Source: Candidatus Brocadia sinica JPN1
Lineage (GTDB): Bacteria > Planctomycetota > Brocadiia > Brocadiales > Brocadiaceae
Length of the DNA stretch: 64,000 nt
NCBI RefSeq assembly: GCF_000949635.1
Contig: NZ_BAFN01000001.1
Location: 2,232,001 to 2,296,000, forward strand
Direction of reading: 5' to 3'
Below the pieces are notes generated by a model, which was given only the letters and a program-made list of their open reading frames with translations, made no database searches and was not told the DNA's origin. Shown one piece after another: positions 17,532 to 32,293 of this stretch; positions within the stretch are counted from its first letter, which is position 1, and each line of letters opens with the position of its first letter. The position numbers and the translations under genes are program-made.

Positions 17532-19004
17532 ATGTATATAATTTTTGGTTGTGACGACGTCGGCGGTGCGCTGGCCAGGAATTTAAGTAAATCCGGCGAG
17601 GATATACTGGTAATCGATAATGACGAAACCGCTTTAGGGGGGCTGAAAGCCCCTAACATTCGTACGGTCATGGCGGACGTTCATACATTAGACTTGGTCT
17701 CGTTACCAGCAAAAGACGCCATAGCCTTCATCCTCCTGCAAAAAAATTTTGAAGATAATCTGACCGTGGCAAAACGCATCAAAAAATCATTTCCGGATAA
17801 ATTTATATTGTCAAGGGCAACTGGCGAAAAGGAGGAGTCTGAATTATTAGGAAATGGCGTAGACCATGCTGTTCAAACAGTCAGAATCATTACAAACGCA
17901 ATCTTTGGTGAACTGGAAACCGCAAAATTAAAAAGGTCTGTTTTCCATTTAGTAAGTGTTATCAAGGGAGCAACGAATAAAGGATTAGCAATTTTTTTAC
18001 AGGACAATCCCGATCCTGATGCAATTGCATCAGGATTTGCGTTAAAGCGCATTGCTGAAAAATATGATATAAAATCCAACATTTATTATGGTGGAAATAT
18101 TGGACGCCAGCAAAACAAGACGTTAGTCAATTTATTAGAAACCGATCTTGTTCGATTAAAAAGCCCGGACGAGGCGATGAAAATACTTAATGCTGTTGAT
18201 AAAGCGGCGCTGATAGAGGCTTCTATTTCTTCAAAAAATAATATATTACCAACAGATATAGTTCCCAATATTGTTATTGACCATCATCAAACAGATTTTA
18301 ACCTTGTAAAAGGGGAGTTTGTTGAAATATTACCAAAAATTGGCGCCACCTCCACTATCATGACAAGATATCTGAGACATCTGGATATTATCCCTGACCC
18401 GCCTCTTGCTACGGCGCTTCGTTACGGAATCAGGGTGGATACGTGTGGATTTACCAGAAACACGACCACCGAGGACCTTGAAGCGGCAGCTTACCTCTCG
18501 CCATTGCTGGATGTAGGTTTGTTGAACCAGATTGAAAATCCTCCCATGAGCGCAGAAACTATCGATATTATTGGTAGGACCATACGAAACCGGGAGGTCA
18601 GAGGTTCGTATCTGATATCTTTTGTAGAATTTATAACCAACCGGGATGCATTACCACAGGCAGCCGAATTAATGTTGCAGATGGAAGGTGTTTCTACTGT
18701 TCTTGTTTTTGGGATTGACAAAGACAAGGTTCAGTTATCGGCCAGAAGCGTGGATACAAGAATCAATCTTGCGTTTTTATTGCAAAAAGCATTTGGATTT
18801 ATGAATGCCGGAGGACATGCCACTATGGCAGCAGGAAGCATAGACTTAGGCATTTTTGGAGATGTAACTGATAAGAAGTCACTTTTGAGAATTACCTTTG
18901 ATGCCGTAAGGAAAAAGTTTTTCTCGGCTGTAGGGATAGACATAGAAAAGCGGGAAATACCGGATGAGTTAGAATTAATGGTTAGCAACAGTACTAAGAA
19001 TTAA
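17532..19004 (+). CDS. TrkA-N domain/DHH-DHHA1 phosphoesterase fusion
   Basis: The protein has 490 residues. Residues 1-130 form a Rossmann-type TrkA-N (RCK) domain ('MYIIFGCDDVGGALARNL', 'ILVIDND'). Residues about 150-480 form a DHH/DHHA1 phosphoesterase with 'DNPDPDAIASG' (metal-binding DxD), 'VIDHHQTD' (the DHH motif) and 'NAGGHATMAAG' (the GGGH-like substrate loop). DHH-DHHA1 enzymes cleave short oligonucleotides or cyclic dinucleotides (NrnA, c-di-AMP phosphodiesterase). TrkA-N domains bind nucleotides and often gate K+ transport, so a c-di-AMP/potassium link is a reasonable but unproved guess. A Cys-rich lipoprotein gene follows after 38 bp, probably in the same transcript. Confidence 0.85.
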   Translation: MYIIFGCDDVGGALARNLSKSGEDILVIDNDETALGGLKAPNIRTVMADVHTLDLVSLPAKDAIAFILLQKNFEDNLTVAKRIKKSFPDKFILSRATGEKEESELLGNGVDHAVQTVRIITNAIFGELETAKLKRSVFHLVSVIKGATNKGLAIFLQDNPDPDAIASGFALKRIAEKYDIKSNIYYGGNIGRQQNKTLVNLLETDLVRLKSPDEAMKILNAVDKAALIEASISSKNNILPTDIVPNIVIDHHQTDFNLVKGEFVEILPKIGATSTIMTRYLRHLDIIPDPPLATALRYGIRVDTCGFTRNTTTEDLEAAAYLSPLLDVGLLNQIENPPMSAETIDIIGRTIRNREVRGSYLISFVEFITNRDALPQAAELMLQMEGVSTVLVFGIDKDKVQLSARSVDTRINLAFLLQKAFGFMNAGGHATMAAGSIDLGIFGDVTDKKSLLRITFDAVRKKFFSAVGIDIEKREIPDELELMVSNSTKN

Positions 19005-19042
19005 CCGTAATAAGTATTTATTATATAGAAGGAGAAGGAATT

Positions 19043-20170
19043 ATGGGAAGAGGGGTTTTTGGGGTTGGTTTAATAAGTCTTACAATTTTTTTGAGTTCTT
19101 GTGTTGCCACTCAAACACAAGTAAAGGAAGCGAAGGAACCAGAAGCAACGTTAGAAATGAAGGCAAAACCTTACAGGGAAGAGGTGAAGACCGGAGTGCC
19201 TATTCCTGTGCCAGTAGAGCCATCAGTCCCAGAAACCCCGCAGGCAGTTGAACCATCAGCTCCAGCAGTAAAAGCGCCAGAAATACCACAGGTTCCTGTG
19301 CCAGAAGCTCCGGGAGCTCCCAAAGTGGAAGAGCCGGAGATGCCAGAGGTTTCTGTGCCGGAAGTTCCGGAAGCCCCAGAAGTAGAAGAACCGGAGGCAC
19401 CAGAGGTTTCTGTGCCGGAAGTTCCGGAAGCTCCAGAAGTAGAAGAACCGGAGGCACCAGAGGTTTCTGTGCCGGAAGTTCCGGAAGCTCCAGAAGTAGA
19501 AGAACCGGAGGCACCGGAGGTTTCTGTGCCGGAAGTTCCGGAAGCTCCAGAAGTAGAAGAACCGGAGGCACCGGAGGTTTCTGTGCCAGAAGCTCCGGAA
19601 GTTCCCAAAGTGGAAGCGCCGGAGGCACCACAGGTTTCCGTGCCAGAAGCTCCATCTCCTGAAACTGTAATGCCACCGGTAGAAGAGACAAAACCTGTAG
19701 AACCACCAGTAGAGCCAGAAGAAAAGACAGAGGCATTACCTTTAGAAAAGAAGGAATCTGCAACAGAGGGTTTGCAGCAATGTGCCACGTGTAATAAAGA
19801 GGTTGGGGAAGGGCATATTTGTGGTCTTACAACATATTGCCAGCAGTGCAAAGAAGAGGTGGGTGCTGGTCATATTTGTGATTTAACATTCTTTTGCCAT
19901 GATTGTAAAAAAGAGGTTGGAGATGGTCATATTTGTGGGGTAACGACTTTTTGTCCAAAGTGCGAAGAAGAAGTTGGGCCTGGCCACATCTGTGATGTAA
20001 CCTATTTTTGTTACGATTGCGAGAAAGAAGTCGGAGATGAGCACATTTGCGGTATCACCCACTTTTGTTTCACATGTAAGGCAGAAGCTGGAGAAGGACA
20101 TGAATGCGGAAGGACTTACTTCTGTTTTGATTGTGAGAAAGAAGTGCCAAAGGATCATCAGCACGAATAG
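19043..20170 (+). CDS. Lipoprotein with Pro-Glu repeats and seven Cys/His repeats
   Basis: GGAGAAGG precedes the ATG. A lipoprotein signal ends in LSSC (Cys about 20). Residues about 50-215 are Pro/Glu/Val-rich, with a 19-residue unit ('EVSVPEVPEAPEVEEPEAP') repeated nearly exactly four times plus divergent copies; this part is extended and probably spans the periplasm. Residues about 245-375 contain seven 19-residue units of pattern CxxCxxEVGxGHxC; the last unit lacks the final Cys. Each unit offers three Cys and one His, consistent with a zinc or other soft-metal site. There is no CxxCH heme motif. No known family was recognised. It follows the DHH gene and is closed by a strong terminator. 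Confidence 0.85.
   Translation: MGRGVFGVGLISLTIFLSSCVATQTQVKEAKEPEATLEMKAKPYREEVKTGVPIPVPVEPSVPETPQAVEPSAPAVKAPEIPQVPVPEAPGAPKVEEPEMPEVSVPEVPEAPEVEEPEAPEVSVPEVPEAPEVEEPEAPEVSVPEVPEAPEVEEPEAPEVSVPEVPEAPEVEEPEAPEVSVPEAPEVPKVEAPEAPQVSVPEAPSPETVMPPVEETKPVEPPVEPEEKTEALPLEKKESATEGLQQCATCNKEVGEGHICGLTTYCQQCKEEVGAGHICDLTFFCHDCKKEVGDGHICGVTTFCPKCEEEVGPGHICDVTYFCYDCEKEVGDEHICGITHFCFTCKAEAGEGHECGRTYFCFDCEKEVPKDHQHE
19349..19633 (+). repeat. 57-bp tandem coding repeat
   Basis: Four near-identical 57-bp units starting GTTTCTGTGCCGGAAGTTCC run from 19349 to 19576, with a fifth, more diverged unit to 19633 and partial ones outside. Each unit encodes 19 residues of the Pro/Glu stalk. The near identity at DNA level implies recent expansion or homogenisation, so copy number probably varies between strains and may be collapsed in assemblies. 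It creates long spurious open frames on the opposite strand. Confidence 0.9.
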
Positions 20171-20211
20171 ACAACGAAGCAATTATTTTTTGTTTATTCA
20201 AGGATAAATCG

Positions 20212-20246
20212 AGAGAGGCATGTTTGAGTGTCAAACATGCCTCTCT
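20212..20246 (+). terminator. Strong intrinsic terminator after the Cys-repeat lipoprotein
   Basis: AGAGAGGCATGTTTGA (20212-20227) is perfectly complementary to TCAAACATGCCTCTCT (20231-20246), a 16-bp stem with a 3-nt loop. The downstream tail TATTT is only moderately T-rich. The stem could serve transcripts from either side. Confidence 0.75.
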
Positions 20247-20392
20247 TATTTCATGGTACTTTCGATGAGTGAGGTGACTCTTCATTCCCCCTCAAAAGTT
20301 ATCGGAAACGCATTTATCAACCAATATACTTCGCCTCCCATGATCTGTAAAATTCTAACATAGTCTTTGTTCCTTATAATGGTAATGCCGAA

Positions 20393-20833
20393 ATGTTCTT
20401 TGGCCTTATTCCAAAGTACGTCTGTCCTCTCGTCGAAGTCATGTTACAAGAAACTCAGTTCTTCCCCAAAGTTCCGTGATGTTCCGGTAAAGACGCTGCT
20501 TGCGGAAGTACAGCTATTAGAGACCAAATTGAAAAATGAGAAGGTTGAAGCGGTCACAAATGAAAACTACGAAGTAGCAGCATTGCTCGAAAATCTCGTT
20601 GACCCCGTTAAAGAATTGCACGGCGAAGCGTTGCTACTTACGCTCGATGATGTCACTGATGATCGGTACAAAATTGAAGACCGCAAGCTAAGAATCTTAT
20701 TGAATCTGGTAAGCGTTATGTTTCAACTGAAGAGTACGAGAAACTTGCAGAAGTCAATTCTCGACTTTGCGACCTTCTGCCACAGAAAGAGATTGATTCG
20801 AAAGAAACGCGCTACTTCACCGGAATATGTTGA
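20393..20833 (+). pseudogene. Decayed gene of unknown function
   Basis: Coding-like text moves through three frames. From 20393 it reads 'MFFGLIPKYVCPLVEVML' up to about 20465. A second frame then gives 'VKTLLAEVQLLETKLKNEK' and 'ENYEVAALLENLVDPVKEL', which resembles a UVR-type helical hairpin. From about 20680 a third frame gives 'AKNLIESGKRYVSTEEYEKL' and ends at TGA 20831-20833. An open frame covering 20367-20885 crosses these changes but its ends look non-coding. Next to an IS630 remnant, this is best read as a decayed gene. Its family was not recognised. Confidence 0.45.
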
Positions 20834-20930
20834 GAGGGAGGTAAATATAGGGCAAGTCCTGTTTCTTGATTTTCAAAAGAAGTGATTTTTTCCTTGCAAT
20901 TAAAAGGGTTTATAGGTAATACATCAGTGC

Positions 20931-21287
20931 ATGACACTATTTCTCAGCAACAGAGAGCGAGGCGAACTGAAAAAGGTTCATAAAGAAGAGCATCTTAGAC
21001 GTCATGCAGGCAGAATGAAAGCCATCCTCCTGCTTGACCAGGTTGGAGTTATGGGAAAGTTGCAGAGGCACTCTTATTAGACGGTCAAACTGTCAGAAAT
21101 TACGAAAAAACATATCAGATTCTAATATCTATTACAATACTTACAAAAAGTTTAAAGATGCGTGTTTAAACTTTTTTGCAAATATTCGCCATTACAAAGA
21201 AAAACGCTGAGACTCGACGATTGTCTTAACTCCCGTATTTGTCGTTATTTTACCGGAGAGAGGCTTCATGGGCAGAAAACTTACTAA
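20931..21287 (+). pseudogene. IS630-type transposase remnant
   Basis: The N-terminal piece (ATG 20931, 'LFLSNRERGELKKVHKEE') is a helix-turn-helix start. It shifts frame near 21045 into 'GWSYGKVAEALLLDGQTVRN' and is then joined by internal deletion to a C-terminal piece 'YYNTYKKFKDACLNFFANI', followed after another shift by 'LRLDDCLNSRICRYFTGE'. Order and text fit IS630/Tc1-like transposases; the DDE core is missing. The last codons run into the start of the large gene at 21268, so that gene's ribosome-binding site lies in the remnant. Confidence 0.65.
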
Positions 21288-24200
21288 ATTGACGCAACTC
21301 CATGTCGTAGCTATCACCTTGCTTATCCTTCTCATCTCTTTTGGTGTCTATTACATCTTTTATGTTTCCTCTCAAAAGACGTATTTTACGAATCGAAGTT
21401 TCCGTTTGCTTGCCGGCATCGGCAACCAAATGAAATTAACGATCGAGAATCTTGGTACCAGCTTGAAAAATGCTGCGAGCTCGGCGAAAAGTGTGCCTAA
21501 AGAGGTAAATTTAACATCAAAGGATTCTGTCGCTGAGTTTATACATGCCAGGGTCAAAGGATCCTTAAGTCTTGTTCCAAATCTTAAATTAACAGACTGC
21601 TCTCCCGAAGCTAATCCATCCGTAATTGAAGGAAACATCTCCAGTCCTGAGATACTTTTCAACACAAGACAGGAAGGGGAAACTTTTTGGTTGTACATCG
21701 ACTATAGAGGATGGCTGTACTTTGACTATACAGGCAGCAAGGATGCGGGTTTCTATACAATAGAAATTCATGCCAGGAGTGATCTGAATGAACTTTTCGA
21801 ACCATTTATCAGCCGGGGGGTGTTTGACGAGGTACTGCTGGCAGAAGAAGATGGAGGGGTGATTTTTCAACGGGCAAAATCAAAATTGAGCGTTGCGAAG
21901 CTGGGAAAGTTTCTGGATAAGGAAGGCGCGCAGAGCGAATTTACATCGATTAATCCACCCGCGAGCTTCTATGGCGTGCGTCTTGCAGGCACAAGTTACA
22001 ACCTCTTTTTACAGCCTCTTCAAATCTCTTTATCTGGGAGTGGAACAACAGGCGATCAGGGAATTGTGAAGAAATGGGTCATCTGCGGATTGGTACGGTC
22101 TGATCGTTTTCATTCGGAAATTCATGCCATTCCCTACGCCATCCTGATTATATTCATATTTTTAGTCTTGCTCATATTCTTGAGTTTGCCTTTTCTCAAA
22201 TTATGGTTCATGGGCCCTAAGGACAGGCTTCGTGCTTCCGATGTGTACTTTCTTGTTTTCTCTGTCTTCATGGGCAGTGCGTTATTGACTTTTGTTTTTC
22301 TTGACACCTATGCCTATGTTAACTTAAGGATGAAAACAGATGATCAATTGAAAAAATTTTCTGACAATATTTGCAAAAATCTTACCACGGAAGTGATCTA
22401 TGTTCTCAGAGAACTTGGGATGCTAAACGATCAATTGGCTCATGATATTGAAGAGCTCGAGAATTTAAAAGAAAAGGAAAATGTGAGGAAAGCTACTGAT
22501 ATTCTGGATCGGATGATTCATCGTGATGACCCGTATCCCTACCTCAACATGGCATTTTGGACCGATAGTGGAGGGCAACAACGTATTAAATGGAGTGTGA
22601 GAAAACACACAACACCATTTATTAATGTTTCGTCCCGGGACTATTTTAAGAAAGCGAAAGAAGACCATCTTTGGGAAATAACAGACAGAGAGAAAAATAA
22701 AAAGTACCGGTTCTGGCTGGAACCGATCTATTCCTTGAATACCGGAGAGAACACGGCAATCCTCTCGATGCGCATGGCCGAAAATAGTCCCGCATGGGTA
22801 GCAAGTATTGATACTCGGCTTTTGTCGCTTATCCAAACCGTTTTACCCCCCGGCTTCGGATATTGTGTTATCGAGAATGATGGAAAAGTGCTATTTCACT
22901 CCGATGAGACAAGGAACTTGCGTGAGAATTTTTTTGAGGAGTGCGACAACGACCGGTTGCTTCTTTCCGCAGTGTTCGGCCGAAAGAATGAATTTGTCAA
23001 CACCCAGTATTTGGGCAGGGGGCACCGACTCTATGCGCGTCCGGTTGACGATTTTCCCTGGTCCCTTGTTGTTTATCGGGACAAGCAAATTCTGGGAACT
23101 GCTAACCTTGATATCCTCAGTATTTCCGTGATTCTCTTCGTATTTTATTCACTTGGGCTGTTTATCATCTTTGGGTTGATTTATCCACTGAATGCAGGCG
23201 ATCAAGCCAGGTGGCTGTGGCCCGATAAAAATCAGGCGGGCAGTTATAATCTGTTGCTTATCATCAATTTTCTGTTCTGTGTTTTGTTGTTCAGAGAGAT
23301 ATTGACATCGCATGGATGGCGAATCTTTTTCTCATCTCTCGCGTTTCCTTTCCTTGGGATGGTTCTGGCCGCTTTGATTTTGAAAAAAGGGCCGATCCTG
23401 GGAAAGAGGATTGAAGTCTCTGTAGTTTTCAAACAATGGAATTTACTCCCTTATCGTGCGGGATATGTATTCATGATGTTTTCTCTTTTAATACTGATTG
23501 GCGTTCTTCCCTCATTTGGCTTTTTTAAAATCATCCACGATGCGGAGATGAAACTTCTTGTTAAGCACGGACAGTTCAATCTTGCCGTTGGCTTGAAGGA
23601 ACGATTTGGACGGGTAAAAGACCGTTATGATACTGTTACCATTAGTGGTCAAAAGGCAGATTGGTTAGAGAAGCGGCTGAATCTCAAATGGGACGTCTAT
23701 GATTCATTTTTCTTCGATACATCTGTTCGGGAAACTGAATGCCCTTTCAAGAGAAATAGGATATCGCATGGTTACTTCCGCTGGTTTCTTACCAAAACCA
23801 GGCCTCTTTACAATCAAACCTCAGTCGAACTCAGTGGATTGACCCCCGATGCCTCTGCGGATGAGTTATGGCAATGGGAAAAAAGTTCCTCTGCAAGTTT
23901 GTTTCTGTGTAGAAAAGGATATGACCGGGGAGGCAAGAAAGACAGCTTCCTCCATATCAGTTCCACAATCCCTATTCTGGAAATACCAAAGAACCCTTTA
24001 TGGTGGATAGGACCGATGATCCTTTTGGCTATCCTTTTCTTTGTTGTCCGTTCCATGGTGCAGAGAGTTTTTCTCCTGAATCTGGATGAGCCGTTGTCTT
24101 CATACAACGGGGATTTGAGTTTTAAAAGCATTTCACAGAATCTTTTCGTACTGAGATCTCCATTTGCCGGCGGAAGTGAACTTTTGAAAAGAACAGAGTT

Positions 24201-25197
24201 TACCCTGATCGATTTACGGGAAGTAGCAAAAGAAGAGGGATGGTCTGAGACATTCACGTATGAAGAAGTTCTAACCGGGAAAGATACGGTAATTGTCATT
24301 GACCATCTTGAGTACAGGATGAACGATTATCAGTGTAATCTTGAAAAACTTCAGTTGCTGGAAGAACTCCTCGTGTATGGCAGAACCATGATTGTTTCGT
24401 CTATGGTTGATCCGGCGAATTTCTGTTTCAAGGCTGGAGCCAGAGATGATCGCACAGGAAAGACCAGGGCTGAAGATAATCAGATGGATCGCTGGACAGC
24501 AGTTTTAAAATCCTTTGTAAAAATTTCTATCGAGGATACAGGGACTCCCGAAGATTTTCTGAAAGATATGCATCGGGAACAGATGAAGATTTTGTCCGAT
24601 GCAAGAGATAAGAGGATGAGAAAACGTCTTACCGGCTTATTCCATGTCGTGAACAGGGAATGCCAATCAAGGATATACCTCCAGAATATCGGTAAAGAAA
24701 TTACAAAACAGATCAAATTCAAACAGCTTACTCCTCAAGAGCTTCTTCAACAAATATCTGACCGGGCTTGCACGTATTATCATGCAATTTGGGCTCTTTG
24801 TTCGAGAGATGAAAAACTTGCCTTATTTTATCTTGCGCAAGACGGGCTTTTAAGTTTTACCAATCACGATATTCGGAGATTGATGAGGAGAGGCCTCATT
24901 GTCAGAGAACCGGGTCTCCGTCTTATGAACGAGAGTTTTCGGCGATTTGTTCTTTCGGAAAGCCATCCGGACCAAGTTGTAGCCTGGCGGAAAGGGGCAA
25001 GGAGCAGCTGGGATACCCTGAAAGGCCCGTTATTGATGGGATTGATGGGTGTAGCCTTGTTTATATTTATAACGCAGCAGGATGTCTTTAACTCAACCGT
25101 AACTCTTTTATCAACATTTACTGGCATGTTGCCTGTCCTTTTTAAACTAATCGGACTGTTTCAGCGAGGTAAGATCGGCAGCAGTGCAGAAGTTTAA
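21268..25197 (+). CDS. Giant Cache-like membrane protein with degenerate ATPase-like C-terminus
   Basis: The protein has 1309 residues, and GGAGAG precedes the ATG. There is a signal anchor at about 12-32, an extracytoplasmic region to 285, and membrane segments near 290-312 and 328-350. A second extracytoplasmic part at about 355-610 is Cache-like ('NVSSRDYFKKAKEDHLWEI', 'GFGYCVIENDGKVLFHSDE', 'FPWSLVVYRDK'). A cluster of membrane helices follows (about 615-760), then another exported loop and a helix near 915-935. The C-terminal cytoplasmic part has a Walker B-like strand 'DTVIVIDHLEY', but its expected P-loop position reads 'VLRSPFAGGSELL' without GK[S/T]. A winged-helix-like end ('HDIRRLMRRGLIVRE') and a final TM close it. 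It is probably a sensor scaffold. It precedes the kinase cluster. No family was recognised as a whole. Confidence 0.7.
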   Translation: MGRKLTKLTQLHVVAITLLILLISFGVYYIFYVSSQKTYFTNRSFRLLAGIGNQMKLTIENLGTSLKNAASSAKSVPKEVNLTSKDSVAEFIHARVKGSLSLVPNLKLTDCSPEANPSVIEGNISSPEILFNTRQEGETFWLYIDYRGWLYFDYTGSKDAGFYTIEIHARSDLNELFEPFISRGVFDEVLLAEEDGGVIFQRAKSKLSVAKLGKFLDKEGAQSEFTSINPPASFYGVRLAGTSYNLFLQPLQISLSGSGTTGDQGIVKKWVICGLVRSDRFHSEIHAIPYAILIIFIFLVLLIFLSLPFLKLWFMGPKDRLRASDVYFLVFSVFMGSALLTFVFLDTYAYVNLRMKTDDQLKKFSDNICKNLTTEVIYVLRELGMLNDQLAHDIEELENLKEKENVRKATDILDRMIHRDDPYPYLNMAFWTDSGGQQRIKWSVRKHTTPFINVSSRDYFKKAKEDHLWEITDREKNKKYRFWLEPIYSLNTGENTAILSMRMAENSPAWVASIDTRLLSLIQTVLPPGFGYCVIENDGKVLFHSDETRNLRENFFEECDNDRLLLSAVFGRKNEFVNTQYLGRGHRLYARPVDDFPWSLVVYRDKQILGTANLDILSISVILFVFYSLGLFIIFGLIYPLNAGDQARWLWPDKNQAGSYNLLLIINFLFCVLLFREILTSHGWRIFFSSLAFPFLGMVLAALILKKGPILGKRIEVSVVFKQWNLLPYRAGYVFMMFSLLILIGVLPSFGFFKIIHDAEMKLLVKHGQFNLAVGLKERFGRVKDRYDTVTISGQKADWLEKRLNLKWDVYDSFFFDTSVRETECPFKRNRISHGYFRWFLTKTRPLYNQTSVELSGLTPDASADELWQWEKSSSASLFLCRKGYDRGGKKDSFLHISSTIPILEIPKNPLWWIGPMILLAILFFVVRSMVQRVFLLNLDEPLSSYNGDLSFKSISQNLFVLRSPFAGGSELLKRTEFTLIDLREVAKEEGWSETFTYEEVLTGKDTVIVIDHLEYRMNDYQCNLEKLQLLEELLVYGRTMIVSSMVDPANFCFKAGARDDRTGKTRAEDNQMDRWTAVLKSFVKISIEDTGTPEDFLKDMHREQMKILSDARDKRMRKRLTGLFHVVNRECQSRIYLQNIGKEITKQIKFKQLTPQELLQQISDRACTYYHAIWALCSRDEKLALFYLAQDGLLSFTNHDIRRLMRRGLIVREPGLRLMNESFRRFVLSESHPDQVVAWRKGARSSWDTLKGPLLMGLMGVALFIFITQQDVFNSTVTLLSTFTGMLPVLFKLIGLFQRGKIGSSAEV

Positions 25198-25304
25198 ATA
25201 CAAATGTCTGTTCTATCTTTTTGTTGAACAGAGGGCATTGGTTTGTTAAAATATCTCCCGATTAATCAAATTTAAGTATACGAAGGTATACACAGAAAAA
25301 ATGT

Positions 25305-25378
25305 TATTGCGGGAGCAAAGCGACGAAGCAATCATTTGCATCAAAAAGACTGAAGATTGCTTTGCCATTGCATGACGA
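25305..25378. repeat. Degenerate dispersed repeat
   Basis: The sequence GCGGGAGCAAAGCGACGAAG, followed by CAATC and in reverse GATTGCTTTGCCATTGC, resembles the widespread intergenic 'TTGCGAGGAGCGAAGCGACGAAGCAATC' type element. It lies in the 236-bp gap between the giant membrane protein and the first kinase. Boundaries are approximate. Confidence 0.4.
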
Positions 25379-25433
25379 CTGAATTTACGCGGGGTTTTGG
25401 CCGTACTGGTACAATCCTAAGGAATCTTGCAAG

Positions 25434-27281
25434 GTGGCCTCATATCTATCAATTAAAGCCAGATTACTCATATTTGCGCTCTGCATTGCGCTCATTCCTA
25501 TTGCTATAATCACAACGGCATACTATTTTCACTCCAGAAATGCTTTAAAGTATCAGATCGTTGAAAAGTTGAAGGCAGTTGCTGAATCGAGAGAGCGCCA
25601 TATCCTATCTACTATGGAGAGAATGAAGGTTCGGGCCATCGATTTCAGTTCCGATGGGATTATAAGAAGTGGCATTGAGAAAATAGTCCACGGAAGGTCT
25701 TCTAAACCGGATGCAATAATTCGCTTAAATGCATACCTCAAAAAAAACAAACTGCCACTATACTCACATCGCCTCCTGGCAATAATCCTTGTTGACAAGG
25801 TGGGTAAGGTTATCTCATCTACCAATGAGAAGTTCGTTGGTAAAGATTTTTCTGGCCAGGATGTATTTGTGCAAGGCATACAGAAGAGCTATGGTGAAAC
25901 ATGCGTTGGCCAGCCACAGTATTTTCCTGACCTTCATGAAAACTGTATATTTACCTCCGCTCCGATTATATCTAAGCATGGCGCTGAGACACTGGGCGTT
26001 ATTATTAACGTCTATAATCTTATAACCCTGAATGAGATTACAACGAACCCTGTGGGAATGGGTGAGACCGGAGAGGTCTGTCTGGTCAATGAAGGCAAGA
26101 TAATGTTTACTGAATCGCGGTTTCTGGAGGATGCTCCGCTGAAGCTGGCAGTAGATTCAGAACCGGTCCGCAGGATTATAGAAAAGGGTGAAGAGATGGT
26201 TGGTATTTATAAAGATTACCGCGGCCAGCCTGTCGTTGGTGTCTCGAAGTATTTACCCGAATATAAATGGATTCTTTTAACCAAGACAAATAAGGCAGAG
26301 GCGTTTGCGCCATTAAAGACGTTGGGTATTATCGCCCTGATTTTAGGGGCTGTTAGTGCTGCTGCGGTTACAAGCTTCGGAATCGTCTTTGCTGTTTCAA
26401 CGTCACGCCCCATTAAAGATTTGACGAAGGCAACAGAGCGGTTCGCCCGTGGAGACTTAGGGCATAGAGTAAAGATAATACGCAAGGACGAAATCGGTTT
26501 CCTGGCAAACAGTTTTAATAGTATGGCTGAAGAACTGGCGCGGGTAATTAACGAACACAAGCGGGCGGAGAAGGAATTAAAGCATTATTCAACTGAGCTT
26601 AAGAGGAGTAATGAGGAACTGCAGCATTTTGCCTACGTTGCTTCTCATGATCTGCAGGAGCCCCTCCGTATGATATCTAGCTATCTTCAATTGATAAAAA
26701 GAAGATACAAAGGCAATCTCGATGCAGACGCAGATGAATTCATTCATTATGCAGTGGATGGGGCCAATCGCCTGCAAAAAATGATTAATGGCTTGCTCGA
26801 ATACTCACGCGTGGATACCCACGGTAAATCATTCGAGTTGGCAGATTGCGAGGTTGTCCTTCAGCAGGCCCTGACCAACCTGAAAGTAGTGATTGAGGAG
26901 AGTATTGCTACAATTACCCATGATCCTCTTCCAACTGTTATGGCTGATAGTTCACAGCTTTTGCTTGTGTTCCAGAATCTCATAACCAACGCCATCAAAT
27001 TCCGTGGTAATGAACCTCCGCGCATCCATATATCAGCCCAACTTAGGGAAAACGAGTGGATATTTTCCGTGCATGATAATGGCATCGGTATCGAGCCTGA
27101 ATATTATGAGCGACTTTTTGTCATCTTCAGGCGCCTGCATAGCAGAGAATATCCTGGTGTTGGTTTGGGTCTGTCGATATGCAAGAAAGTTGTAAAACGG
27201 CATGGCGGAAGAATCTGGCTGGAATCGGAGCCAAGAAAGGGCTCAACATTTTATTTCACAATTCCAGGTAAGAGATGCTGA
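25434..27281 (+). CDS. Cache-HAMP sensor histidine kinase
   Basis: It starts at GTG 25434 and has 615 residues. A first TM (about 10-30) is followed by a double-Cache extracytoplasmic domain (about 35-285; 'VGKVISSTNEKFVGKDFSGQDVF' region) and a second TM at about 295-320. A HAMP domain follows (about 320-372), then a coiled coil, then a phytochrome-type kinase core: H box 'FAYVASHDLQEPLRMISSY' (phospho-His in ASHD, near 404), N box 'NLITNAIKFRG', G boxes 'VHDNGIGIEPEY' and 'GVGLGLSICKK'. It senses a small ligand outside the membrane and phosphorylates a receiver, plausibly the single-domain regulator encoded 205 bp downstream. Its N-terminal half is clearly paralogous to the kinase at 61380. 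Confidence 0.92.
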   Translation: MASYLSIKARLLIFALCIALIPIAIITTAYYFHSRNALKYQIVEKLKAVAESRERHILSTMERMKVRAIDFSSDGIIRSGIEKIVHGRSSKPDAIIRLNAYLKKNKLPLYSHRLLAIILVDKVGKVISSTNEKFVGKDFSGQDVFVQGIQKSYGETCVGQPQYFPDLHENCIFTSAPIISKHGAETLGVIINVYNLITLNEITTNPVGMGETGEVCLVNEGKIMFTESRFLEDAPLKLAVDSEPVRRIIEKGEEMVGIYKDYRGQPVVGVSKYLPEYKWILLTKTNKAEAFAPLKTLGIIALILGAVSAAAVTSFGIVFAVSTSRPIKDLTKATERFARGDLGHRVKIIRKDEIGFLANSFNSMAEELARVINEHKRAEKELKHYSTELKRSNEELQHFAYVASHDLQEPLRMISSYLQLIKRRYKGNLDADADEFIHYAVDGANRLQKMINGLLEYSRVDTHGKSFELADCEVVLQQALTNLKVVIEESIATITHDPLPTVMADSSQLLLVFQNLITNAIKFRGNEPPRIHISAQLRENEWIFSVHDNGIGIEPEYYERLFVIFRRLHSREYPGVGLGLSICKKVVKRHGGRIWLESEPRKGSTFYFTIPGKRC

Positions 27282-27338
27282 AACAAGTTCAGCATGACAT
27301 ATTATACAATGAATTTCAAAGTAATGGCACGGCGCTAA

Positions 27339-27367
27339 AAATCCCCCTTTTTTAACCAGGGGGGTTT
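27339..27367 (+). terminator. Weak hairpin after the first kinase gene
   Basis: AAATCCCCC (27339-27347) pairs with GGGGGGTTT (27359-27367), with one G-T pair and an 11-nt loop. No good T-run follows, so it may be a weak terminator or a dispersed palindrome. It lies between the kinase and the response regulator. Confidence 0.4.
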
Positions 27368-27485
27368 ATGTTGAGAATGATTAACTTGATTCTATAGGAA
27401 TTTTCATTTTAACCTGTCATCTATGAAAAAGCATGTCAAGAGGATAGAAATTATCTGAATATTTGGAGGAGAGAAAAAAACAATT

Positions 27486-27935
27486 ATGAATAATGAAGGA
27501 GTAGTTAGATCAATTGAAATTCTGCTGGTAGAGGACAGTCCCGGTGATGTCCGGTTGACTCGGGAGGCTTTAAAGGAAGCCAAGATGCGAAATAATTTAC
27601 ATGTTGTTGGTGACGGAGTCGAGGCTATGTCTTTTTTGCGAAAAAAGGACAAGTATGCCAATGCGCCCCGCCCTGATCTTATTTTGCTTGATCTGAACCT
27701 GCCGAAGAAAGATGGACGCGAAGTACTCGCAGAAATAAAATCAGATGAGGATCTGAAGAACATCCCCGTGGTAGTTTTGACCATCTCAAAATCAGAAGAA
27801 GATATCCTCAGGTCGTATAACCTCCATGCAAATTGTTACGTTACCAAACCGATTGACTTTGACCAGTTTACTACCGTAGTAAAGGCTATCGAAAATTTCT
27901 GGTTTACTATAGTAAAATTACCTATGAAAAGATAA
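27486..27935 (+). CDS. Single-domain response regulator (Rcp1 type)
   Basis: The 149 residues form a receiver domain only. Acidic pocket '[12 protein letters not shown]' starts it, and the phospho-acceptor Asp is in '[13 protein letters not shown]' (near 67). Thr in 'VVVLTIS' and Lys in 'CYVTKPIDF' complete the site. The text matches the Rcp1/CheY-like regulators that pair with phytochrome-type kinases. No DNA-binding domain is present, so it must act by protein contact or as a phosphorelay intermediate. The hybrid receiver-kinase gene follows after a single nucleotide, so the two are surely co-translated. AGGAG-like sequence lies upstream of the ATG. Confidence 0.93.
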
Positions 27936-27936
27936 C

Positions 27937-29058
27937 ATGGGAAAAAAATGTATAAAAATTCTGCTGATTGAGGATAACCCAGGCGATGTCCGGTTAATAC
28001 AGGAGATGCTGAAGGAGGCTGGCGCTGCTCAATTTGAGCTGGAGCACGCCGACCGACTTTCATCAGGGTTGGAGCGCCTTAACATGAGAGAGTTTGACGT
28101 GATACTACTCGACCTCGGACTTCCGGAAAGTTATGGGCTTTCCACGCTCGTCAATATCCTTCCCTGGGCACAGAAGTTACCAATCGTGGTGCTTACCGGG
28201 AGTATTGGCGATGAAACGATCGGTATTGAAGCTGTCCAAAACGGGGCGCAGGACTACCTGACAAAGGGGCAACTGGATGGCAAAACGTTGATCCGTTCCG
28301 TACGTTATGCCATCGAGCGCAAGCGTATTGAAGAAGAACAGAGAAAACAACGCGACCATCTTGAATATCTTAACGGTAAACTCATTACCCTGAACAAAGA
28401 GCTGGAGTCATTCAGCTACTCTGTATCTCATGACCTGAGTGCGCCTTTGAATCGTATCATAGGTTTTTGTGATATCTTATTAAGTGACTATGCTGATAAA
28501 CTTGACCAGCAAGGTAAAAATTATCTTCACCGTGTGATTACGGCCAGCCAGCATATGGTAAAACTTATTAGAAATATGCTGGATCTTGCCCGCGCAACCC
28601 GCAGTGAGATGCACAATGAGACAGTGAATCTGAGTGCACTGGTGAAGCTGCTTGCTAAGGATCTCATGGAAAGGCAGCCGGAACGTAAGGTAGAGTTTGT
28701 TATTGCTGAAGGATTGACTGCCAGGGGTGATCCTGGGCTGTTACGGATAATGATTGAGAACCTGCTGGGTAATGCGTGGAAGTTTACTCAAAAGCATCAA
28801 AATGCAAAAATAGAATTTGGGGTGGCACAGTATGATGGAAAATCAGTTTATTTTTTGAGAGACAATGGTGTAGGTTTTAAAATGGACATTGCCGATAAAT
28901 TATTCAATGCATTCCAGCGTCTGCACTCATCAACTGATTTTGAAGGTACCGGTATCGGATTGGCTACCGTGCGGCGCATCATCCATCGCCATGGCGGTCA
29001 AATATGGGCTGAAGGTGAGGCGGACAAGGGTGCGACGTTTTATTTTACATTAGTGTAA
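27937..29058 (+). CDS. Receiver-histidine kinase hybrid, cytoplasmic
   Basis: The protein has 373 residues and no membrane segment. The N-terminal receiver has 'LLIEDNPGDVRL', Asp in 'VILLDLGLPESYG', Thr in 'VVLTGS' and Lys in 'YLTKGQ'. A coiled coil (about 125-155) leads to the kinase core: H box 'FSYSVSHDLSAPLNRIIGF', N box 'NLLGNAWKF', G boxes 'RDNGVGFKM' and 'GTGIGLATVRRI'. The receiver-first order suggests that phosphorylation by an upstream kinase controls this kinase. It is tightly packed between the Rcp1-type regulator and the MEDS kinase, 10 bp from the latter. Confidence 0.92.
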   Translation: MGKKCIKILLIEDNPGDVRLIQEMLKEAGAAQFELEHADRLSSGLERLNMREFDVILLDLGLPESYGLSTLVNILPWAQKLPIVVLTGSIGDETIGIEAVQNGAQDYLTKGQLDGKTLIRSVRYAIERKRIEEEQRKQRDHLEYLNGKLITLNKELESFSYSVSHDLSAPLNRIIGFCDILLSDYADKLDQQGKNYLHRVITASQHMVKLIRNMLDLARATRSEMHNETVNLSALVKLLAKDLMERQPERKVEFVIAEGLTARGDPGLLRIMIENLLGNAWKFTQKHQNAKIEFGVAQYDGKSVYFLRDNGVGFKMDIADKLFNAFQRLHSSTDFEGTGIGLATVRRIIHRHGGQIWAEGEADKGATFYFTLV

Positions 29059-29068
29059 TGATAGCAAA

Positions 29069-30775
29069 ATGGCGACTAATATGAGAAAAACAGGAATAGA
29101 TATCATAGGTGATGTGCGATGGGGCACTCATTTTTGCCAATTTTATCAAACCAAAGAAGATTTAACTGATATTTTAGTGCCTTACTTCAAGACGGGATTG
29201 GAAAGTAATGAGTTCTGTATGTGGATTACCTCGAAGCCAGTTACTGTTGAAGAAGCTAAAGGTGCGATAAAAAAGGAAGTACCTGATTTCGAACAATACC
29301 TAATAAGAGGTCAGATAGAAATCATTCCGCATACAGAATGGTATCTCAAAGATGGCGTTTTTAATCTCCAGAGAGTCCTCAATGGATGGGTTGACAAGCT
29401 CAACCGAGCCCTGGCAAGAGGTTACGAGGGTATGAGAATAACAGGGAATACGGCCTGGCTTGAAAAGAATGATTGGAGGAATTTTGCTCATTATGAAGAA
29501 GAGATAGACAATGTTATCAGTAAATACAAGATGATGGCCATTTGCAGTTATTCACTTGATACTTGTGGAGTATACGAGATCATCGATGTGGTTCGCAATC
29601 ATCAGTTCGCCCTTATCAAGCGCGAAGGCAGGCTGGAGCTTTTTGAAAGCTCTGAGCGCAGGCGTGCAAAGGAAGCGCTAAGAATATCTGAGGAAAAGTA
29701 CCGCATTTTATACGAGACTATTAGAGACGGGATTGTGGCTACCGATATGGATGGGCGCATCCTTGAGTGCAACCAGGCGTATGTAGATATGCTTGGGTAT
29801 TCGAAAGACGAGATAACGAAATTAACCTACCACCAGCTTACACCGGAAAAGTGGCACCAGATGGAATTCGGGATAGTAAAAGAACTGATTATTGGAAGAG
29901 GTTATTCCGATGAATATGAAAAGGAATATAGAAAAAAAGATGGAATGGTGTTTCCGATATCCATCAAGGTTTGGCTGATGAAAGATGAGTATGGTAAACC
30001 GAAGGGGATGTGGGGCATTGTTCGAGACATTACTGAGCGCAAGCATGCAGAGGACGAATTGCGGGAGCAACGCGACTATCTTGAATATTTCACCAGCCAG
30101 CTCACCGCTGCCAATAAGGAGTTAGAGGCATTTAGCTATTCTGTATCGCATGACCTCCGGGCGCCGTTGCGGAGTATAAACGGCTTTTGTAAAGTACTTA
30201 TGGAAGATTATGCAGATAAGCTGGATGCACAGGCAAAAAATTATCTCCAGCGTGTGAGTGCCTCCAGTGCATGTATGGGGCAACTTATTGAAGACCTGTT
30301 GAATTTGTCCCGTATAACACGCAGAGAGATGTGTTATAAAACAGTTAATTTAAGTGCGATGGTAAGATCGATTGCGAATGAATTGCAGGAGATGCAGCCG
30401 GAACGAAAAGTGGAGTTTATTATAGCTAATGGGTTGGTCACCAATGGCGATTCCAATTTGTTGCGGATAGCGTTTAAAAACTTGTTGAGTAATGCCTGGA
30501 AGTTTACCAGAAATCGCCAACAAGCACGAATAGAATTTGGTATTACACCGTGTAACGAAAAATCGGCGTATTTCGTTCGTGACAATGGCGTTGGTTTCGA
30601 CATGGCATATGTCAATAAACTGTTTGGCGCATTCCAGCGTCTGCATATGGCGACTGAATTTGAAGGCACTGGCATTGGGCTGGCTATCGTCCAGCGCATT
30701 ATTCACCGCCATGGTGGCCATATCTGGGCCGAAGGCAAAGTGGATAAAGGAGCAGTTTTTTATTTCACGATTTAA
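29069..30775 (+). CDS. MEDS-PAS histidine kinase
   Basis: The protein has 568 residues. Residues about 8-170 form a MEDS (DcmR-type sensory) domain with 'GTHFCQFYQTKEDL' and 'FCMWITSKP', a domain proposed to bind hydrocarbon or related ligands. A coiled coil and a PAS domain (about 208-330; 'DGIVATDMDGRILECNQAYVD', 'WGIVRDITERK') come next, then the kinase core: H box '[19 protein letters not shown]', N box 'NLLSNAWKF', G boxes 'VRDNGVGFDM' and 'GTGIGLAIVQRI'. No membrane segment is present. MEDS plus PAS input in front of a phytochrome-type kinase fits an intracellular redox or ligand sensor. It is in the same run as the other two kinases, and the last regulator follows after 82 bp. Confidence 0.9.
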   Translation: MATNMRKTGIDIIGDVRWGTHFCQFYQTKEDLTDILVPYFKTGLESNEFCMWITSKPVTVEEAKGAIKKEVPDFEQYLIRGQIEIIPHTEWYLKDGVFNLQRVLNGWVDKLNRALARGYEGMRITGNTAWLEKNDWRNFAHYEEEIDNVISKYKMMAICSYSLDTCGVYEIIDVVRNHQFALIKREGRLELFESSERRRAKEALRISEEKYRILYETIRDGIVATDMDGRILECNQAYVDMLGYSKDEITKLTYHQLTPEKWHQMEFGIVKELIIGRGYSDEYEKEYRKKDGMVFPISIKVWLMKDEYGKPKGMWGIVRDITERKHAEDELREQRDYLEYFTSQLTAANKELEAFSYSVSHDLRAPLRSINGFCKVLMEDYADKLDAQAKNYLQRVSASSACMGQLIEDLLNLSRITRREMCYKTVNLSAMVRSIANELQEMQPERKVEFIIANGLVTNGDSNLLRIAFKNLLSNAWKFTRNRQQARIEFGITPCNEKSAYFVRDNGVGFDMAYVNKLFGAFQRLHMATEFEGTGIGLAIVQRIIHRHGGHIWAEGKVDKGAVFYFTI

Positions 30776-30857
30776 GATTTCAGATTTGAGACTGACTCTT
30801 GGCAACCTCAAGTCTGGAGCGGGGAATCAAAAGTGTTAAGTTAAAAGGTGTAATTAT

Positions 30858-31334
30858 ATGATAAATCAACAATCTTCAACCTCAAATTCACAAGTAAAAG
30901 TCGTCCTGCTGGTGGAGGATAATCCGGACGATGTGGAATTGTCCCTGCGTGTGCTAAAAAGGAATTATATCAATAATGAGGTAATAGTTGTCCGTGATGG
31001 CGGAGAGGCGCTGGATTATCTATTTGGTAAAGGCACTTACGCAGAACGAGATATGAGTGTGATGCCTGCGATTGTTCTCCTGGATTTGAAATTGCCGAAG
31101 ATTGAAGGTCTGGAAGTGCTGCGCAGCATACGTGCAGACGAGCGGACAAAGCTGCTCCCGGTGATTATTCTTACCTCATCAAAGGAAGATAAAGACCTGA
31201 TTCAGGGTTATAAATTGGGAGCCATTAGCTATATTCGTAAACCAGTCGATTTTTTCAAGTTGAATAAAGCTGTGAGGCAACTAGCCAAAAATTTTTATTG
31301 CGATAGCAAGCAATACCCATTTTTTAAAATATAA
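30858..31334 (+). CDS. Single-domain response regulator (Rcp1 type)
   Basis: The protein is a receiver of 158 residues: 'LLVEDNPDDVELSLR' acidic pocket, Asp in 'IVLLDLKLPKIEG' (near 76), Thr/Ser in 'VIILTSSKED' and Lys in 'YIRKPVDF'. There is no output domain. The 25-residue N-terminal extension is Ser/Gln-rich. It is the last gene of the signalling run and a likely phosphate acceptor for the MEDS-PAS kinase. It is similar to, but clearly diverged from, the regulator at 27486. Confidence 0.93.
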   Translation: MINQQSSTSNSQVKVVLLVEDNPDDVELSLRVLKRNYINNEVIVVRDGGEALDYLFGKGTYAERDMSVMPAIVLLDLKLPKIEGLEVLRSIRADERTKLLPVIILTSSKEDKDLIQGYKLGAISYIRKPVDFFKLNKAVRQLAKNFYCDSKQYPFFKI

Positions 31335-31609
31335 AAATCCTGGAATTGCTCTCTAAGAATCAATTCCCGGTTGAGGTTTGAGCCGCTTTTGTGAGCATGA
31401 TTCACTTCCTTTATTTCACTCATGGTATCTGCCTGCTCAATTATTTGAGATAGGCATCCCGCCCATTTGAACAAGCTGCATCAGGAATTGTTTACGCCGA
31501 ATGATCCCTCGGACCTGTTCTTGAGCTAACACCTCATTCCATACGTATGAAAAGAATTGAATTGACATATGAGCGATAAGGTGTATTTTTTATTAAAGCG
31601 GAGGGCACA

Positions 31610-32293
31610 ATGAAAAATATAATTTTTGAAAACCGACGCGATGCAGGCCGTCAGTTGGCTGAAGTCTTCACGAAACGCGACTACAGCAATCAGCCGCTGG
31701 CAGTGCTGGGCATCCCGCGCGGGGGTGTTGTGGTAGCGGATGAAGTCGCCGGAGCCCTCTCCTCACCCCTGGATGTTGTCATCGTTCGTAAGCTCAGGGC
31801 CCCCTATCAGCCTGAATTGGGTATTGGTGCAGTGGTGGACGGTGATAACATTAACATTATTAACGAAGAGCTCGTTCGTGCTTTGGGCGTTTCGTCAGAT
31901 TATCTGAATAGTGAGATTGCCTGCCAGCGGGAGGAGATTGAGCGGCGGTTGCGCATTTATCGTGGCGACCGGCTGGCACCAGAGGTCACCGGAAAGACGG
32001 TCATTGTGATCGATGATGGCATTGCAACGGGGTATACCTTCCGTGCAGCGCTGGAAGGTCTGCGCCGGCGTAAGCCTGCGTGGCTCGTTGCCGCAGCGCC
32101 GGTTGCAGCTCAAAGTAGTATCGATATGCTGAGCGCTTTTGCTGATGAAATGGTATTTCTCAGCACGCCGGTGTCTTTCTTTTCTGTTGGCACGTGGTAC
32201 CACGATTTTGACCAGGTGAGCGATGAGGAGGCCGTTGCAATCCTTCACCGCAGCTGGTCCCGGTTCAAACCTCAGAAACCTGTGGAAAACTAA
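31610..32293 (+). CDS. Phosphoribosyltransferase-family protein
   Basis: The protein has 227 residues, and GGAGGG precedes the ATG. The PRPP-binding motif is 'VIVIDDGIATGYTFRAAL' (about 127-145), with Asp-Asp and the following turn typical of type I phosphoribosyltransferases. The N-terminal 'GIPRGGVVVADEVA' is the first loop. Such proteins are often encoded beside, or fused to, a dienelactone-hydrolase-like protein, which is exactly the next gene. The base substrate is unknown. A 98-bp AT-rich gap separates it from the hydrolase start. Confidence 0.88.
   Translation: MKNIIFENRRDAGRQLAEVFTKRDYSNQPLAVLGIPRGGVVVADEVAGALSSPLDVVIVRKLRAPYQPELGIGAVVDGDNINIINEELVRALGVSSDYLNSEIACQREEIERRLRIYRGDRLAPEVTGKTVIVIDDGIATGYTFRAALEGLRRRKPAWLVAAAPVAAQSSIDMLSAFADEMVFLSTPVSFFSVGTWYHDFDQVSDEEAVAILHRSWSRFKPQKPVEN

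Follow-up and report, generated by a model that had tools for sequence, protein, structure and literature searches.

STAND proteins usually signal by assembling in an ATP-driven manner. Inactive STAND modules have been described in bacterial conflict systems, where iSTAND and iSTAND2 carry eroded NTP-binding motifs and are either MoxR-vWA conflict-system components or linked to effectors, with no Cache receptor mentioned in the passages considered (PMC8195603). Receptors built on dCache_1 sensors, such as KinD, PctA and Tlp3, usually have kinase, MCP, GGDEF/EAL or phosphatase outputs. In PctA, an Arg binds amino-acid carboxylates (PMC10104139).

We analysed a gene that shares features with each of these systems, located at positions 21268-25197 (forward strand, as are the parts of the gene described below) of a 64,000-nucleotide window of the Candidatus Brocadia sinica JPN1 genome. 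Its 1309-residue product resembles STAND NTPases of the NACHT, ATPase_2 and AAA_35 type in having a winged helix after the core, a Walker-B Asp, the corresponding strand order and a P-loop site in register. Unlike these proteins, it lacks the P-loop GK[ST] and the GxP-like Pro, is embedded in the membrane between transmembrane (TM) segments 8 and 9, and bears Cache sensors in place of repeat sensors. It shares with iSTAND and iSTAND2 a STAND module with eroded NTP-binding motifs, but is a multi-TM receptor rather than a conflict-system component or effector-linked module of the kind described there (PMC8195603), and no MoxR or vWA genes were identified among its nine neighbouring genes at 17532-32293. 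With dCache_1 receptors it has in common the dCache fold and an R-x-[YF]-F motif whose Arg lines up with that of KinD, whereas its additional extracytoplasmic domain(s), its extra TM segments and its apparently decayed STAND output set it apart. This architecture falls under none of the families in Pfam, NCBIfam or PADLOC, in agreement with the original prediction that its domain order would match no familiar family, and the papers searched do not describe any transmembrane protein that fuses Cache and STAND parts. Our preferred reading, which we consider probable, is that the protein is a Cache membrane receptor whose STAND-derived pseudo-ATPase serves as a docking or conformational module.

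Gene conservation and distribution

The open reading frame starts with ATG, contains no interruption and lies in a complete 4.08-Mb genome; the close relatives used for comparison are MAGs named Candidatus Brocadia. Five full-length orthologues were identified (88, 79, 74, 58 and 44% identity), all colinear with the query from end to end, and both the start codon and a GAGAGG-type ribosome site are kept among them. Between species, dN/dS is ~0.2 for the gene as a whole, and no segment reaches 0.6. Taken together, the colinear orthologues, the conserved start and ribosome site and the low dN/dS establish that this is a real, functional gene under purifying selection, and the dN/dS values rule out a pseudogene.

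The distribution of the gene is patchy, with 6 of the 11 Candidatus Brocadia genomes encoding it. Outside the genus, no orthologue was detected among 75 genomes of the class or 392 Planctomycetota genomes, nor any relative in the plasmids and viral contigs searched; for phyla beyond Planctomycetota, coverage came from a single scan that picks up close relatives, and sequences with a similar winged helix and TM hairpin may exist there. Even a mixed profile retrieved no intermediate combining Cache domains with an intact STAND module from the 392 Planctomycetota genomes. A C-terminal profile yielded two marginal matches in genomes of the phylum: one (in G109) is antisense to another gene and was dismissed as chance, and the other (in G005) spans 36 residues and contains stops.

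Membrane topology

The mean hydropathy of the six orthologues (query included) predicts 10 TM segments, which delimit three extracytoplasmic domains (ECDs), in line with the many membrane helices and at least two extracytoplasmic parts originally proposed. The TM segments fall near residues 12-33, 288-312, 325-347, 614-640, 660-680, 684-705, 730-752, 911-932, 1250-1269 and 1273-1297. TM1 (21301..21366) is followed by ECD1; TM2 and TM3, joined by a basic cytoplasmic loop (22129..22308), precede ECD2; TM4-TM7 (residues 614-752; 23107..23523) form a cluster before ECD3; and TM8 (23998..24063) leads into the C-terminal region. Residues 34-286, 348-612 and 754-910 are accordingly predicted to lie outside and residues 934-1245 inside the cell, and the loops that follow TM2 and TM6 contain basic residues, consistent with the positive-inside rule.

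The C-terminal TM segment of the original prediction was recovered, not as a single helix but as one half of a hairpin (TM9-TM10, 25015..25158) with dN/dS values of 0.03-0.22. Conservation of this hairpin, together with the STAND ancestry discussed below and the patchy occurrence within the genus, would fit a role in defence or as a membrane effector, in which a STAND-like protein acts on the membrane through its hairpin. We regard this as very improbable: the large Cache sensor region lies outside the cell, the protein has no PADLOC match, and no defence genes were recognised among the annotated neighbours.

Extracytoplasmic sensor domains

The Cache-like character originally proposed for the protein is borne out by ECD2 (residues 348-612; 22309..23103), located between TM3 and TM4, which was matched by Pfam dCache_1 (PF02743) in all six orthologues with a best E-value of 9e-11. 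The query itself reached an E-value of 1.7e-7 with a score of 31.5 bits, under the curated cut-off of 45, and the best PDB match of ECD2, a weak one (E = 0.054), was the KinD sensor. R457 (22636..22638), part of an R-x-Y-F motif, is invariant in the six orthologues and aligns with KinD R131, the residue replaced by Ala in the R131A KinD entries. On the basis of this motif, R457 would be equivalent to the carboxylate-binding Arg of PctA. Since R457 aligns with the KinD Arg and its PctA equivalent binds carboxylates, the ECD2 ligand may contain a carboxylate, a guess with some support. In terms of the dCache_1AA amino-acid motif, the equivalent of the carboxylate-site Arg is this invariant R457, while the other motif positions cannot be placed safely.

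ECD1 (residues 34-286; 21367..22125) has no Pfam match. Its low-confidence AF2 model nevertheless resembled known sensors, the 50 VIA-align matches listed being overwhelmingly Cache/PAS-type receptor sensor domains (Z-scores of 5.9-8.1), and ECD1 is thus probably a second dCache domain as judged from this model. A profile comparison between ECD1 and ECD2 scored 27.4 against a shuffle maximum of 25.6, which is only suggestive of an origin by duplication. For ECD3 (residues 754-910; 23527..23997), delineated from hydropathy, neither a family match nor a PDB match was obtained. Extracytoplasmic sensing is well represented in the anammox genome G000, with 23 dCache_1 matches, most of them above the curated cut-off, forming a rich repertoire.

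A STAND-type cytoplasmic region

The cytoplasmic region comprises a degenerate STAND-like NTPase core (residues 954-1160; 24127..24747) and a winged-helix domain (residues 1161-1245; 24748..25002), the latter providing the strongest match to STAND proteins and substantiating the winged-helix-like end originally proposed. When 98 related genomes were searched with the whole protein, a single distant match came up fortuitously (E-value of 5.8e-4 per genome): the STAND ATPase L007, which has an intact GPKFIGKT and matches Pfam NACHT, ATPase_2 and NPHP3_N. The alignment covers the half of the cytoplasmic part that extends from sensor 1 through the winged helix, and direct BLASTP of the two proteins gave an E-value of 6e-8 for that one comparison. 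Comparison of the cytoplasmic part with a profile built from eight STAND domains gave hhalign scores of 39-44 (pairwise P-values of 1e-4 to 3e-5); the controls were lower, with a maximum of 25.8 among 100 column shuffles and a score of 18.5 when the profile was reversed. Most of this match falls in the winged-helix half. Taken by itself, the N-terminal half of the core scored 19.1, not clearly above its controls (20.1 for the best of 100 shuffles). Profile comparison thus identifies the winged-helix half as a STAND-type homologue.

AF2 models were poor, with pLDDT values of 44 for the C-terminal part and 35 for the N-terminal part, because only five sequences were usable in the alignment, and comparison of the C-terminal fold with the PDB by Foldseek and VIA-align gave no clear assignment. 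Because no TM segment separates the P-loop position from Walker B, a KAP-type NTPase was rejected.

Loss of nucleotide-binding motifs

Alignment of the N-terminal half alone by hhalign placed SQNLFVLRSPFAGGSELLK exactly on PDHISIIGPKFIGKTIFLR, bringing RSPFAGGS (residues 963-970; 24154..24177) into register with the P-loop GPKFIGKT, where STANDs have GxxxxGK[ST], and MAFFT reproduced the same register. Across the six orthologues, this site reads RSPFAGGS, RSPFAGGS, RSPFARKN, SSPFIMKG, GSPFTRKS and GTSYAKKE. The GK[ST] of the STAND Walker A is present in none of them, nor is the Gly before the Lys; the Lys itself is kept in four, and is gone in Candidatus Brocadia sinica JPN1 and its nearest relative. 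The Walker B-like strand without a GK[S/T] loop noted in the original prediction was recovered as VIVIDHLEY (24286..24315), in which VIVIDHLE conforms to the Walker B pattern (hhhhD plus a further acidic residue) and D1012 is invariant. A sensor-1-like strand, MIVSS (residues 1041-1045; 24388..24402), follows. Further downstream, GLFH (residues 1123-1126; 24634..24645) aligns by MAFFT with the GGIP, GGVP or GGHP of STAND relatives at the GxP motif position, so that the GxP-like Pro is lost. In one orthologue the stretch linking sensor 1 to the winged helix is shorter by ~45 residues, and both alignment and dN/dS indicate weaker constraint on the core.

We read the missing P-loop as the result of erosion within a module of STAND origin, rather than as a feature of an unknown ATPase fold, because of the P-loop register, the orthologue series, the lost Gly and Pro, the invariant D1012 and the deletion of ~45 residues. 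Judged from these motifs, the module probably no longer binds ATP. Placement as a characterised STAND sensor, which would have counted against the original prediction, applies only by half: the module is STAND-derived, yet the protein belongs to no characterised family because its nucleotide-binding motifs fail. The persistence of the Walker-A Lys in four orthologues, the invariant Walker-B Asp and purifying selection on the core could instead reflect a nucleotide-driven STAND switch with a non-canonical P-loop, perhaps acting as a hetero-oligomer with an intact STAND that supplies the Lys. Such a switch is unlikely, however, given that the Gly before the Lys is gone in all six orthologues, the Lys in JPN1 and its nearest relative, the GxP-like Pro has been lost, and one orthologue has deleted the stretch from sensor 1 to the winged helix.

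Proposed signalling mechanism

Under our preferred reading of a Cache receptor with a pseudo-ATPase module, ECD2 at least, and probably ECD1, would bind a small ligand outside the cell, perhaps one containing a carboxylate. The signal would then run via the TM bundle into a cytoplasmic module of STAND ATPase descent, with a P-loop core and a winged helix, that has lost its nucleotide-binding loop, and which TM8 and the TM9-TM10 hairpin would tether to the membrane on both sides. We infer that this module, under the control of the ligand, would serve a partner for docking or as a conformational element, rather than work as an ATP-driven switch. More tentatively, the protein may represent a new class of receptors, whose tandem Cache sensors would control a STAND-derived pseudo-ATPase locked to the membrane and with a purely conformational or docking output, and in which stepwise P-loop erosion is visible within one genus. 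If true, this would mean that a STAND scaffold can act as the pseudo-enzyme output of a classical small-molecule receptor, spanning the membrane and regulated from outside, without an ATP site. The six orthologues represent different stages of P-loop loss, and are thus suited to a direct test.

Genomic neighbourhood

The gene was originally described as heading a kinase cluster, and a histidine kinase, receivers and hybrid kinases are indeed encoded downstream on the same strand (25434-31334). The two are separated by a 236-bp gap containing a promoter-like site (TTGAAC-17-TAAAAT, 25224..25252), which is largely kept in three species. The adjacency on the same strand in three species, together with the dCache domain likewise carried by the first kinase, is compatible with a role as input or accessory receptor of these kinases. 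The gap and separate promoter-like site argue against it, as does the absence of the cluster beside two orthologues: in G001 the orthologue is directly followed by the phosphoribosyltransferase-domain gene that in the window lies beyond the kinases, and in G004 no cluster kinase is adjacent. In addition, close orthologues of the first kinase are limited to a full-length one in the nearest species (G009) and a partial one at a contig end in G003, with none in the other eight members of the genus. Neither HisKA nor HATPase_c matched any of the six orthologues of the receptor-like protein, and the kinase cluster is not a conserved neighbour of the gene. We consider such a receptor role improbable, and the link of the gene to the kinases is recent or incidental; the upstream flank of the gene also varies between species.

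Several other features of the neighbourhood were recorded. Within the kinase cluster, 29069-30775 encodes a histidine kinase that carries PAS as well as a sensory domain of the MEDS (DcmR-type) kind. The orthologue of the phosphoribosyltransferase-domain gene at 31610 in G006 (L042, G006:C181:5002-5676) has one in-frame TGA. Upstream, 17532-19004 encodes a TrkA_N (RCK-type) domain fused with DHH and DHHA1 phosphoesterase domains. Finally, the region immediately upstream of the 1309-residue gene (20940-21230) contains the remains of a coding sequence, broken up over several frames (among them HLRRHAGRMKAILLLDQ, GWSYGKVAEALLLDGQTVRNYEKTYQ and FKDACLNFFANIRHYKEK), which resemble a decayed IS630-type transposase.
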